Shown here: in pieces, positions 404 through 12,558 of the stretch | Layout: every line of letters starts with the position of its first letter | How positions within the stretch are numbered: position 1 is the first letter of the stretch | Source: a virus | IMG/VR virus record: IMGVR_UViG_3300027805_000026 | Location: 1-43,246 of that record | Reading direction: 5' to 3' (one strand) | DNA length: 43,246 bases | Program-made: the position numbers and the translations under genes | The notes under the pieces: generated by a model | Database searches by the model: none | Told to the model about the DNA's origin: nothing | The model's input: only the letters and a program-made list of their open reading frames with translations

Positions 404-595
404 ATGCCCAAGCTTAAAAACAAACGCACCTTTCTTGGTATTAGCGGCCTCTCGCCACAGGCGATTGAGGCATTGCGCGAACGCGCACGCGATAACAACC
501 GCAGCGTCAGCGGGGAGATTCGCGAGATTATCGAAGCCGAGCTTTCGTCGTGCGATTCCTCCGCGCACGGCGCGCAAACCACCGGGGGAAATTAG
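404..595 (+). CDS. Arc-family ribbon-helix-helix regulator
   Basis: A 63-residue protein. After a basic N-terminus (PKLKNKRTF), the segment LGISGLSPQAIEALRERA and the following NNRSVSGEIREIIEAEL match the strand-helix-helix pattern of Arc/Mnt-type repressors (the 'S.s.EIR..IE.AL' second helix). It is the first gene behind the early promoter, which overlaps a short inverted repeat, so autoregulation is likely. It may be the phage repressor or an early-gene modulator. The family call is fairly secure and the role is inferred. Confidence 0.75.
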   Translation: MPKLKNKRTFLGISGLSPQAIEALRERARDNNRSVSGEIREIIEAELSSCDSSAHGAQTTGGN

Positions 596-606
596 AACAC
601 AGAACA
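595..606 (+). promoter_or_regulatory. Start-associated motif GAACACAGAACA, copy 1
   Basis: An exact 12-mer 7 nt before the ATG at 614, which has no clear Shine-Dalgarno sequence. It is one of six exact copies in the first 12.6 kb, all on the plus strand and all at start codons. Confidence 0.75.
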
Positions 607-613
607 AAACAAC

Positions 614-871
614 ATGGACTACCTCACCATCATCGCAGTCACGCTGGCGGCAATCGGCGTGGTTGGCATGGCGTGGCTGGGCGGCTACGAAGTCGGCTCA
701 TCCAGCGCATCAAACGCAATCAGCGCAGAACGCGATTTCGCGGATCGGCGCATTCAAGGACTCCTTGCGAGTCTTAACGAAAAGAAGCCCCGCTTGCGCT
801 ATCGCAAAGTTGATGCGCGGTCGGTCGGTCGCAAACGCTACCTAAACACAAAGTTGAAGGAGGTCGCATGA
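614..871 (+). CDS. Small single-pass membrane protein
   Basis: An 85-residue protein with one predicted N-terminal transmembrane helix (about residues 3-27, IIAVTLAAIGVVGMAWLGGY), then a charged, basic cytoplasmic-like tail (KKPRLRYRKVDARSVGRKR). The start is preceded by the GAACACAGAACA motif. The stop overlaps the next start as ATGA. I do not recognise a family. Early phage membrane proteins of this size include superinfection-exclusion proteins, but nothing here proves that. Confidence 0.6.
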   Translation: MDYLTIIAVTLAAIGVVGMAWLGGYEVGSSSASNAISAERDFADRRIQGLLASLNEKKPRLRYRKVDARSVGRKRYLNTKLKEVA

Positions 872-1038
872 GCATAGATCGCCGCCTCCCCGTGTCGGAC
901 AACCTCGGCTGGCAACCGTGTCTTGATCCGGTCGCGCTTGGCCGTTTACTGGACCGTGTTTGCAGTGGCCGAGCGCCGTCTTTGCGGCAGCGGGTAGTCA
1001 AGGCGCTTGCCAACCTTCGCAGGAGGATCGGCGCGTGA
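868..1038 (+). CDS. 56-residue hypothetical protein
   Basis: The ATG at 868 overlaps the previous stop (ATGA) and has a strong Shine-Dalgarno sequence, GAAGGAGGT, just upstream. The encoded protein (begins MSIDRRLPVSDNLGW, ends LANLRRRIGA) has an arginine-rich helical C-terminus. Its own stop overlaps the following GTG start. The family is unknown. The clean coupling on both sides is the main support. Confidence 0.6.
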   Translation: MSIDRRLPVSDNLGWQPCLDPVALGRLLDRVCSGRAPSLRQRVVKALANLRRRIGA

Positions 1039-1142
1039 GGACGGACCCCCCGGAAACGGCCATCGCGGCCATGCTTTTGCTAACCGCCATCGCGGTGGGC
1101 TTGGTCTTGTTCGTCGAGCTTATCGCTAAAAACCTGCGATGA
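1035..1142 (+). CDS. 35-residue membrane microprotein
   Basis: A GTG start overlaps the previous stop (GTGA) and the stop overlaps the next ATG (ATGA). A short charged N-terminus is followed by one hydrophobic helix (AAMLLLTAIAVGLVLFVEL) and a basic tail. An upstream in-frame ATG exists at 960, but it would overlap the neighbouring gene heavily, so the GTG is preferred. The function is unknown. Confidence 0.5.
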   Translation: MRTDPPETAIAAMLLLTAIAVGLVLFVELIAKNLR

Positions 1143-1426
1143 AGATTCCGCGCGCATCGATGTTTCGCAAGCCCCGCCCGAAGGGCTGGGGGAAGAACGC
1201 GAAGAACGGCCACGCGAAGGGGCGCAAGCACGGCGTTGCGCGCACAACGCGCTACGATCGCGAGCTTGTCGAGGTTGTCCCGCCTGCGGTTTGCCGGGGC
1301 AAGGGGGATTACCTCGCCGCAAACTGCGTTGTCCTCGCGGCGGCGGTTTTTGGCCCCGCCTCGCAGGCATGGGCCGAGGCATTGCTGCCAGCGGCAAGGC
1401 AACTCGACGCACGGAGGGCGCAATGA
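1139..1426 (+). CDS. Basic hypothetical protein
   Basis: A 95-residue protein, ATGA-coupled to the genes on both sides. The N-terminal third is very rich in Lys/Arg/Gly (FRKPRPKGWGKNAKNGHAKG), suggesting nucleic-acid contact. The C-terminal part is alanine-rich and helical. I do not recognise the family. Confidence 0.55.
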   Translation: MKIPRASMFRKPRPKGWGKNAKNGHAKGRKHGVARTTRYDRELVEVVPPAVCRGKGDYLAANCVVLAAAVFGPASQAWAEALLPAARQLDARRAQ

Positions 1427-1686
1427 GCGGCGTTATTATGGAAAGCGAAGACTACATCGCCATCCTTAAAGCCGAAGTCGGCTCTCTCAACGAGGAGCTT
1501 GTCCGCGAGCGCGCACGGCGCGAGGCGGCAGAGAAGGGCGAGGAGCTTGCTATTGCCAGCGGATTGCAGTGGCAGCGCAAATATCACGAAGCGCGCAAGC
1601 AGTTGCAGTCGTGGGCGGATTTTGCGGATGAAGAAATGAAGCTTGCCGCGCTACGCCGCGCGGAAGTGCAGGCATGTGAATTGTGA
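1423..1686 (+). CDS. Coiled-coil hypothetical protein
   Basis: An 87-residue protein starting at the ATG that overlaps the previous stop, with GGAGGG upstream. Most of the chain is a predicted coiled coil (about residues 10-75; heptad-like AEVGSLNEELVRERARRE). It resembles generic phage coiled-coil accessory proteins. No catalytic motif is visible. A longer upstream start in the same frame is possible but would overlap the previous gene by about 130 nt. Confidence 0.55.
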   Translation: MSGVIMESEDYIAILKAEVGSLNEELVRERARREAAEKGEELAIASGLQWQRKYHEARKQLQSWADFADEEMKLAALRRAEVQACEL

Positions 1687-1874
1687 GCGGGGCTAATCAG
1701 ATCGTTTTGGGGAGCGTGACGGTTGGCCCCGCTCCAAACTCCTGCGAGGACGCAATGGCCGCGAGCATTGTGCATTTGCTGACGCGCTTGGCCGAGGTCG
1801 AGGCGGAGCGCGATTTCTACAAGGCAGCGGCGAGCAGAATCATGCAGCCGTGCAGGGGGAGGCGTAAGCAATGA
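1683..1874 (+). CDS. Short helical hypothetical protein
   Basis: 63 residues from a GTG that overlaps the previous stop (GTGA). It contains a helical segment (ASIVHLLTRLAEVEAERDFYKAA) and a basic C-terminus, and ends ATGA-coupled to the nuclease-like gene. It is similar in style to the preceding coiled-coil protein. No family is recognised. Confidence 0.5.
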   Translation: MSGANQIVLGSVTVGPAPNSCEDAMAASIVHLLTRLAEVEAERDFYKAAASRIMQPCRGRRKQ

Positions 1875-11895: not shown

Positions 11896-11957
11896 AGCGG
11901 TCATTTGCAGGGGTTTAGGGGGGTGAAAAAAAAGATAAAAAAAGGTGAATCTTTTTC

Positions 11958-11986
11958 TTTACAAAGGCAAGCGGTTGTCTTAACTT
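11958..11986 (+). promoter_or_regulatory. Promoter for the 11996 gene group
   Basis: TTTACA (11958-11963), a 17-nt spacer and TAACTT (11981-11986), preceded by A-tracts (11926-11943) as in the early promoter. TTGTCCTTGT overlaps the -10 and continues almost to the ATG at 11996, which would put the transcript start at or next to the start codon. The region 11896-11957 holds no gene. Confidence 0.55.
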
Positions 11987-11995
11987 GTCCTTGTT

Positions 11996-12241
11996 ATGAG
12001 AACACAGAACACAAAGACGGGCGCGGGGAACTCCACCGCCGTGCTTCAATACAAAGTGCGCAGCAAGATCAGTAATGCGTTTTGGGGTAGCACGGCAGAC
12101 TTCACCAACCCGGCAAGTCTTTACCGCGAACAAGTCGGATTTTTCTTCAAAGAAGATGCCGCAAAATTGCTCAACAAGGCTGAGGTCGAATCGCTTTATC
12201 GCAGCTTCGATCCTTGCACGCTTGAACTCGTTGTTTGCTAA
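11996..12241 (+). CDS. 81-residue hypothetical protein
   Basis: A small protein (begins MRTQNTKTGAGN; later VRSKISNAFWGSTADFTN and FFFKEDAAKLLNKAE). It starts 9 nt after a -10 box, so the message may be leaderless, and its first codons contain the GAACACAGAACA motif. It heads a group of accessory genes between the large terminase and the portal. No family is recognised. Confidence 0.55.
   Translation: MRTQNTKTGAGNSTAVLQYKVRSKISNAFWGSTADFTNPASLYREQVGFFFKEDAAKLLNKAEVESLYRSFDPCTLELVVC
12000..12011 (+). promoter_or_regulatory. Start-associated motif GAACACAGAACA, copy 5
   Basis: An exact copy beginning in the second codon of the gene at 11996. Here the motif sits just inside the coding region at the probable 5' end of the mRNA. 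Confidence 0.7.
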
Positions 12242-12255
12242 CCGGAGGACGAACA

Positions 12256-12456
12256 ATGACAACGACCAACACCGAAACCCTCGCATCCGTTAAATCCCGC
12301 CAAGTCATTTGGGTTGATTGGATGCAGAAGGCGACCGCAGGACTTTCCGACGATTCGCTTGTCGAAGTCACAACGCAGCGCACGCCGTTTGGCGACTACT
12401 GCCTCGGTATTAAGAAAGCGGAACCGCTCAAGATAGAAGGGGGATTTCAAGGATGA
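12256..12456 (+). CDS. 66-residue hypothetical protein
   Basis: ATG at 12256, preceded by CCGGAGGA. The sequence contains SVKSRQVIWVDWMQKATAGL and ends with KIEGGFQG, and its stop overlaps a tiny following frame. An in-frame TTG at 12235 is possible but lacks a ribosome site. No family is recognised. Confidence 0.5.
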   Translation: MTTTNTETLASVKSRQVIWVDWMQKATAGLSDDSLVEVTTQRTPFGDYCLGIKKAEPLKIEGGFQG

Positions 12457-12539
12457 CTTCCCTCCCGCCCTGCCACGCGCAGGGCGGCATGGGACGCCAG
12501 ACGGCGAACCACGATCAGCGGCGGCAACCGCTGAAATAA
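12453..12539 (+). CDS. 28-residue putative microprotein over a hairpin
   Basis: An ATGA-coupled frame (MTSLPPCHAQGGMGRQTANH...). It contains a perfect 9-bp stem, CCGCCCTGC / GCAGGGCGG. The coding potential is doubtful, since the DNA may simply be a structured spacer. It is kept because of the exact coupling to the upstream gene. Confidence 0.3.
   Translation: MTSLPPCHAQGGMGRQTANHDQRRQPLK
12465..12487 (+). terminator. Perfect 9-bp hairpin
   Basis: CCGCCCTGC - CACGC - GCAGGGCGG. It is very stable but has no U-run directly after it, so it may attenuate or stabilise the mRNA between the accessory genes. Confidence 0.4.
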
Positions 12540-12546
12540 AAAGAAA

Positions 12547-12558
12547 GAACACAGAACA
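12547..12558 (+). promoter_or_regulatory. Start-associated motif GAACACAGAACA, copy 6
   Basis: An exact copy directly abutting the ATG at 12559 (0 nt spacer). It is preceded by AAAAAGAAA. Confidence 0.75.

Follow-up and report, generated by a model that had tools for sequence, protein, structure and literature searches.

A repeated word at phage gene starts and its complement in the capsid gene 3'UTR, a candidate antisense partner

What role might a single 12-nt word have when it recurs at the start codons of unrelated phage genes? The question is raised by GAACACAGAACA in the virus record IMGVR_UViG_3300027805_000026. The window, i.e., the whole stretch of DNA that was analyzed, consists of the 43,246 bases of this record. 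It encodes an ERF-like annealing protein, a RusA-like resolvase, a gpA-type terminase, a portal, a major head protein and an integrase, and because of this gene content it probably represents a temperate tailed phage. The phage collection has no near match to the first 20 kb of the window. A terminase search retrieved 79 viral contigs as relatives, and the phage family is known here from metagenomes alone. The contig end, positions 1–26, consists of 26 consecutive G residues and probably reflects a sequencing artefact. The ORF at 6698–7696 contains GGGGCGCGG-like repeats and matches no Pfam family. Start-associated phage repeats have been known since 2011, to our knowledge without a function.

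The six exact copies described in the first-pass annotation are all recovered, all on the plus strand (Table 1); the minus strand has none. Their number is beyond chance, as had been claimed: at a tolerance of up to two mismatches the window has 10 matches, compared with 2.4 ± 1.4 in dinucleotide shuffles (shuffle maximum 6). The gap between the end of the motif and the ATG is 7, 2, 6 and 0 nt for the copies at 595, 2870, 5521 and 12547, respectively. A partial copy with two mismatches is found at 2328, within the ERF-like gene. The near copy that had been placed beside a start at position 2257 is instead at a stop codon (Table 1). All six exact copies are at starts that lack a Shine-Dalgarno (SD) site, in agreement with the earlier description; the five starts that were scored have duplex energies between -0.8 and +0.2 kcal/mol, and before ATG 11996 no SD is seen by eye.

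Folding is weak at several tagged starts (2840–2905, 580–640 and 5495–5560). Hairpins that have no U-run are present immediately 5' of tagged starts at ~2272–2297 and 12520–12535, and these are kept in relatives. The copy at 5521 is also part of a mini-ORF of 7 codons (5520–5543, ATG 5520, MNTEQNK-stop) whose stop overlaps ATG 5539. In contig L022 a mini-ORF at ~1709 (MNTEQTH-stop) likewise begins at the motif and overlaps the ATG of the next gene. Mini-ORFs that overlap in this way suggest termination-reinitiation.

Table 1. Positions of the start motif, the head gene 3'UTR and associated elements in the window
Feature	Position	Strand	Remark
Motif copy 1	595..606	+	precedes ATG 614 (MDY gene); first motif base is the final base of the upstream TAG stop
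Near copy AAACACAGAACA	2256..2267	+	between RusA-like stop and hairpin; no start there; next ATG 43 nt on
Motif copy 2	2313..2324	+	overlaps start codon of ERF-like gene; begins on G of ATG 2311; reads ATGAACACAGAACA
Motif copy 3	2870..2881	+	2 nt 5' of ATG 2884; 92-aa gene, SSB position
Motif copy 4	5521..5532	+	6 nt 5' of ATG 5539; also within mini-ORF 5520-5543
Promoter-like TTTACA-17-TAACTT	11958..11986	+	inverted repeat in spacer; 9 nt 5' of ATG 11996; kept before non-homologous genes
Motif copy 5	12000..12011	+	one base past ATG 11996; reads ATGAGAACACAGAACAC; frame differs from copy 2
Motif copy 6	12547..12558	+	abuts ATG 12559 (DUF932 gene)
Major head protein gene (phrog_1005)	20423..21379	+	3'UTR bears antisense word
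Antisense word TGTTCTGGTTC	21385..21395	+	head gene 3'UTR; relatives have TGTTCTGTGTTC or TGTTCTGTGTGTTC
Intrinsic terminator	21406..21438	+	GC stem, GAAA loop, U-run; directly 3' of antisense word
TTGACA element	7895, 16724, 19093, 19578, 21437, 24218, 25037, 31601, 39123	+	mostly late genes

The motif is present in most of the longer relatives and is almost always in the orientation of the gene. A count in related phages, the check proposed with the first-pass annotation, bears out the link to start codons. When motif contexts were collapsed to distinct 60-nt sequences and a start was defined as an ATG that opens an ORF of at least 35 aa, 138 of 145 distinct contexts (95%) are at an ATG start, compared with 25% for random positions in the related viral contigs. 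The tagged genes represent ~37 gene clusters. Positions of the ATG relative to the motif start are -5/-4 (45 contexts), -2 (13), +11 to +16 (65) and +18 to +24 (15), so that the motif is past the start codon in 58 of the 138 contexts. Some starts have 7-nt tandem copies of the motif (GAACACAGAACACAGAACA), and some copies are within operons, immediately past the upstream stop. A separate word, ATGARAACACAGAACAC, is found in ~10 low-GC viral contigs as single copies, apparently by chance.

After an ATG the motif is read in two different frames, ATGAACACAGAACA and ATGAGAACACAGAACA. Since it may precede the ATG or follow it in either of two frames, the constraint on the sequence indicates a function at the level of nucleic acid instead of peptide. 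The absence of an SD extends to the relatives. With a cut-off of <= -4 kcal/mol and genes from a simple gene caller, an SD is present in 7% of tagged genes; the share is 36% among other genes and 51% among overlapping genes without the motif. The last value fits the earlier observation that the motif is absent from genes coupled through overlaps; such genes often have an SD. An SD is defined by pairing between the region upstream of the start and the 16S 3' end; at tagged starts no such pairing is found, and energies are near 0.

Verrucomicrobiota as the host phylum is guessed from distant similarity of the terminase, the strongest distant match being to a Verrucomicrobia bin; the genome collections have no close prophage. 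Among 388 Verrucomicrobiota genomes the 12-mer occurs at <0.3 copies per genome, and the 31 contexts that were read show no start link of the phage type. This upholds the proposal that the motif is phage-specific, with the phylum a guess. The motif was also considered as a pairing site for 16S rRNA and rejected: the 16S loci of Verrucomicrobiota, the guessed phylum, pair with it no better than with permuted motifs. Some Verrucomicrobia are SD-scarce despite a CCUCC in 16S (PMC10783764). A search of Rfam gave no family match at the gathering threshold, and papers that contain the letters of GAACACAGAACA deal with non-phage subjects.

Most copies with the ATG at -4 are preceded by a conserved TTTACA-17-TANNTT that ends ~9 nt 5' of the ATG. 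At the corresponding place, a terminase lineage that is more distant (40% identity) carries TTGCAT-16/17-TATTAT or TATAGT. Because of this spacing, the messages of the -4 copies are probably almost leaderless, with predicted 5' ends; a -10 element ~9–10 nt 5' of the ATG, as in leaderless mRNAs, is a property of this one class of copies. Between the -35 and -10 elements, at 11964–11980 in the window, there is an inverted repeat, GRCAA-GCGN-TTGYC. Its arms change together in some relatives, and for this reason it may perhaps be an operator.

A second start-linked element, TTGACA, was overlooked in the first-pass annotation. It is located 13–16 nt 5' of an ATG in nine of nine plus-strand copies in the window, mostly before late genes, and the single minus-strand copy is not so placed. 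The relatives have 158 distinct TTGACA contexts at 13–17 nt. The element does not look like a sigma70 promoter, as an evident -10 box at suitable spacing is missing. Across 115 Verrucomicrobiota genomes, a TTGACA-related pattern shows no enrichment. Since TTGACA often precedes late genes, the two genome halves appear to use different start-linked words. At 19578–19600 a TTGACA and an in-frame ATG are present inside the head protease gene, also in relatives; this is possibly a nested scaffold start.

Also missed by the first-pass annotation was the complement of the motif within the capsid gene 3'UTR, a word that suggests an RNA as the partner. The few copies of the motif on the minus strand lie without exception in one location, the stretch that separates the stop codon of the major head gene from its terminator. 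When the whole plus strand of the window was scanned for duplexes, the head gene 3'UTR (21380–21407) came out as the best partner of the motif, at -14.0 kcal/mol, despite a deletion in the word. This 3'UTR ranks first in 13 of 13 contigs that have the head gene, i.e., the window and 12 relatives, and 2 of 60 permuted motifs place it in the top three of the window. Almost all relatives with this gene end have a version of TGTTCTGTG(TG)TTC. The nine columns of the GTTCTGTGT core are 94–100% conserved in 16 UTR variants and the flanking columns 44–88%, a count that leaves out the window (one-base deletion), G391 and G393. The 3'UTR thus has a conserved seed followed by an intrinsic terminator, an arrangement characteristic of trans-acting 3'UTR-derived sRNAs. 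Folding shows the GC stem and U-run, with the word mostly unpaired in L010 and L016 and partly paired in the window.

Some contigs have a gene of unrelated sequence at the head position. Its capsid role is assumed from position, as it has no PHROG match. The 3'UTR of this second gene family is the top partner of the motif in 8 of 9 contigs; in the exception, L064, it ranks seventh. The fit is weaker, with the energy in L059 equalled by 37 of 300 shuffles, and exact covariation, which was sought in this second family, was not found. L074 has the motif, but its UTR word is GTTCGTGTGTTC. In the window the UTR pairs with its own six starts at -18.4 kcal/mol compared with -13.7 ± 1.4 in shuffles, 2 of 300 of which reach this energy, and exact 8–9-mer matches of its word, which has the one-base deletion, are not above shuffles near starts. 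The complementarity was spotted post hoc, and its shuffle significance is modest in single genomes; for the latter reason the argument draws jointly on rank, conservation and the change between lineages.

The change between lineages is found in G391 and G393, two relatives of lower GC content that have homologous head proteins (79–81% identical) and no GAACACAGAACA. Their UTR words, GTTGTTGGTGTTGGTGTTC and GTTGTTCGTTGGGTTGTTGGTGTTC, differ from that of the main lineage. In G391 the complements ACCAACAACACCAACACCAACA, GAACACCAACAA, ACCAACAACAA and CAACAACAA are present at ~6 starts on the plus strand and scarcely elsewhere; in G393 the complement flanks the ATG of the ERF-like gene, a single start. 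When starts were called without regard to matches, five of nine complementary 9-mer sites in G391 are near starts compared with 0.7 in shuffles, and 8 of 1000 shuffles had as many. The same count is weak in G393 (85 of 1000 shuffles as many), and a main-lineage UTR has 0 complementary 9-mer sites near starts in G391.

A comparison of longest exact matches shows 10–13 nt between main UTRs and main starts and 5.4–6.6 between main UTRs and G391 starts (window and L303 UTRs excluded). The G391 UTR gives 10.0 with its own starts and 6.5–8.5 with main starts, the G391 starts in this comparison having been partly picked by their matches. By energy alone, the long GU-rich UTR words of G391 and G393 fit main-lineage starts no worse than their own. 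The starts in G391 are CA-rich in general. L303 and L305 have the UTR word TGTTCCGTG, yet the L303 contig retains AACACAGAAC starts; the AACACGGAACA starts expected from TGTTCCGTG in these two contigs were not found. A joint change of seed and starts is therefore present in G391, weak in G393 and absent in L303. A shift of the UTR word with a counterpart at the starts of at least one lineage lends support to pairing and is not a proof of it.

The reading that we favor, with belief somewhat ahead of doubt, is that GAACACAGAACA is an RNA-level start tag that is silenced late by antisense pairing with the capsid gene 3'UTR. The tag would be a CA-rich word in the ribosome footprint of SD-less early and accessory genes; its position and the absence of an SD suggest that it most likely aids initiation. 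It would double as a pairing site for the GU-rich antisense word GUUCUGUGU... between the head gene stop and the terminator. With the onset of head gene transcription the 3'UTR would become available, either in the tail of the mRNA or as a processed RNA that ends at the terminator. It could then form duplexes with every tagged start and prevent translation from it, and the early genes would be off while capsids are made. Complementarity, conservation and lineage change together argue for this late silencing. A wider proposal, which we doubt slightly more than we believe, is that of a phage-wide RNA regulon in which capsid transcription itself would silence the early program and word and complement would co-evolve across lineages.

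A simpler explanation is that the motif is purely a translation initiation element of an SD-poor host, i.e., a CA-rich enhancer or a site of S1-type or leaderless-type recruitment, and that the UTR complement is incidental or has another role. The SD-less starts, the SD scarcity of some Verrucomicrobia (PMC10783764), the broad CA-richness of G391 starts and a position that varies, even past the ATG of probably near-leaderless messages, as with ACA and CA-repeat enhancers (PMC3879156), are all consistent with it. We nevertheless regard it as unlikely: a generic enhancer needs no identical 12-mer in ~37 gene clusters, an invariance that suggests a specific partner, and the UTR word is conserved independently and is the top partner genome-wide. 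Less probable again is an RNA-binding site for a phage early protein that activates or represses translation of the tagged genes. Such a site would agree with the exact invariance of the motif, the 7-nt tandem copies at some starts and the phage-specific word, but it leaves the complementary UTR word and its change in G391 and G393 unexplained, and no candidate protein was identified. That an early transcription regulator uses the motif as a DNA operator or promoter element is very improbable, since the promoter-like element and inverted repeat upstream of one class of copies are outweighed by a motif that is non-palindromic, lies past the start codon in 58 of 138 contexts, occurs in operons without evident promoter-like sequence, and has start-linked copies that are always sense-oriented, downstream of promoters or inside coding sequence. 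Of the functions offered in the first-pass annotation, a DNA site is thus not favored, and a start-linked, phage-specific signal at the RNA level is well supported, with copies on one strand, in ~37 clusters, in two frames and at SD-less starts, and no start link visible in the 388 Verrucomicrobiota genomes.

The same annotation drew a parallel to the start-associated sequences (SAS) of cluster K mycobacteriophages. These have the consensus GGGATAGGAGCCC with an AGGAG SD core able to pair with 16S rRNA, are located 3–7 nt upstream of starts and have no known partner (Pope 2011, PMC3203893). The parallel holds for layout: like SAS, GAACACAGAACA is a short asymmetric repeat in a single orientation at the starts of non-structural genes of many families, and it is rare in the guessed host phylum. 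It does not hold for sequence. GAACACAGAACA has neither the SAS consensus nor an AGGAG core, pairs with Verrucomicrobiota 16S no better than permuted motifs and, unlike SAS, is sometimes located after the ATG and has a complementary 3'UTR word. A complement in the capsid message represents a concrete partner candidate for a start-associated repeat.

The closest mechanism, by analogy, appears to be that of the sRNA GcvB with ACA enhancers. ACA motifs boost initiation without fixed spacing and are silenced by GcvB (Yang 2014, PMC3879156). GAACACAGAACA has two ACA triplets, with the ATG at offsets of -5 to +24 from the motif, and here too a CA-rich word with loose spacing near the start has a putative complementary RNA able to bind many targets. 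GcvB is a stand-alone bacterial sRNA whose studied targets have an SD, whereas in the present case the phage encodes both partners, the complement belongs to a capsid gene 3'UTR and the target word is nearly invariant. As cited in PMC3879156, CA repeats act past the AUG and ACAA repeats act without an SD. GAACACAGAACA resembles these in that a CA-rich word may work after the AUG; the repeats, as they are cited there, are unlike it in not being a conserved natural word of a phage family.

Phage antisense RNAs such as c4 (P1/P7), Sar (P22) and VpdS (VP882) have been reviewed (PMC12197685). In c4 and Sar a phage RNA pairs with phage messages and blocks translation initiation, as is predicted here, but their target is an antirepressor message, unlike the tagged starts. 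The review describes none of the three as a capsid 3'UTR word that matches a shared start tag (PMC12197685); if the favored reading is correct, such a word would provide a temperate phage family with a simple early-to-late switch made of RNA.
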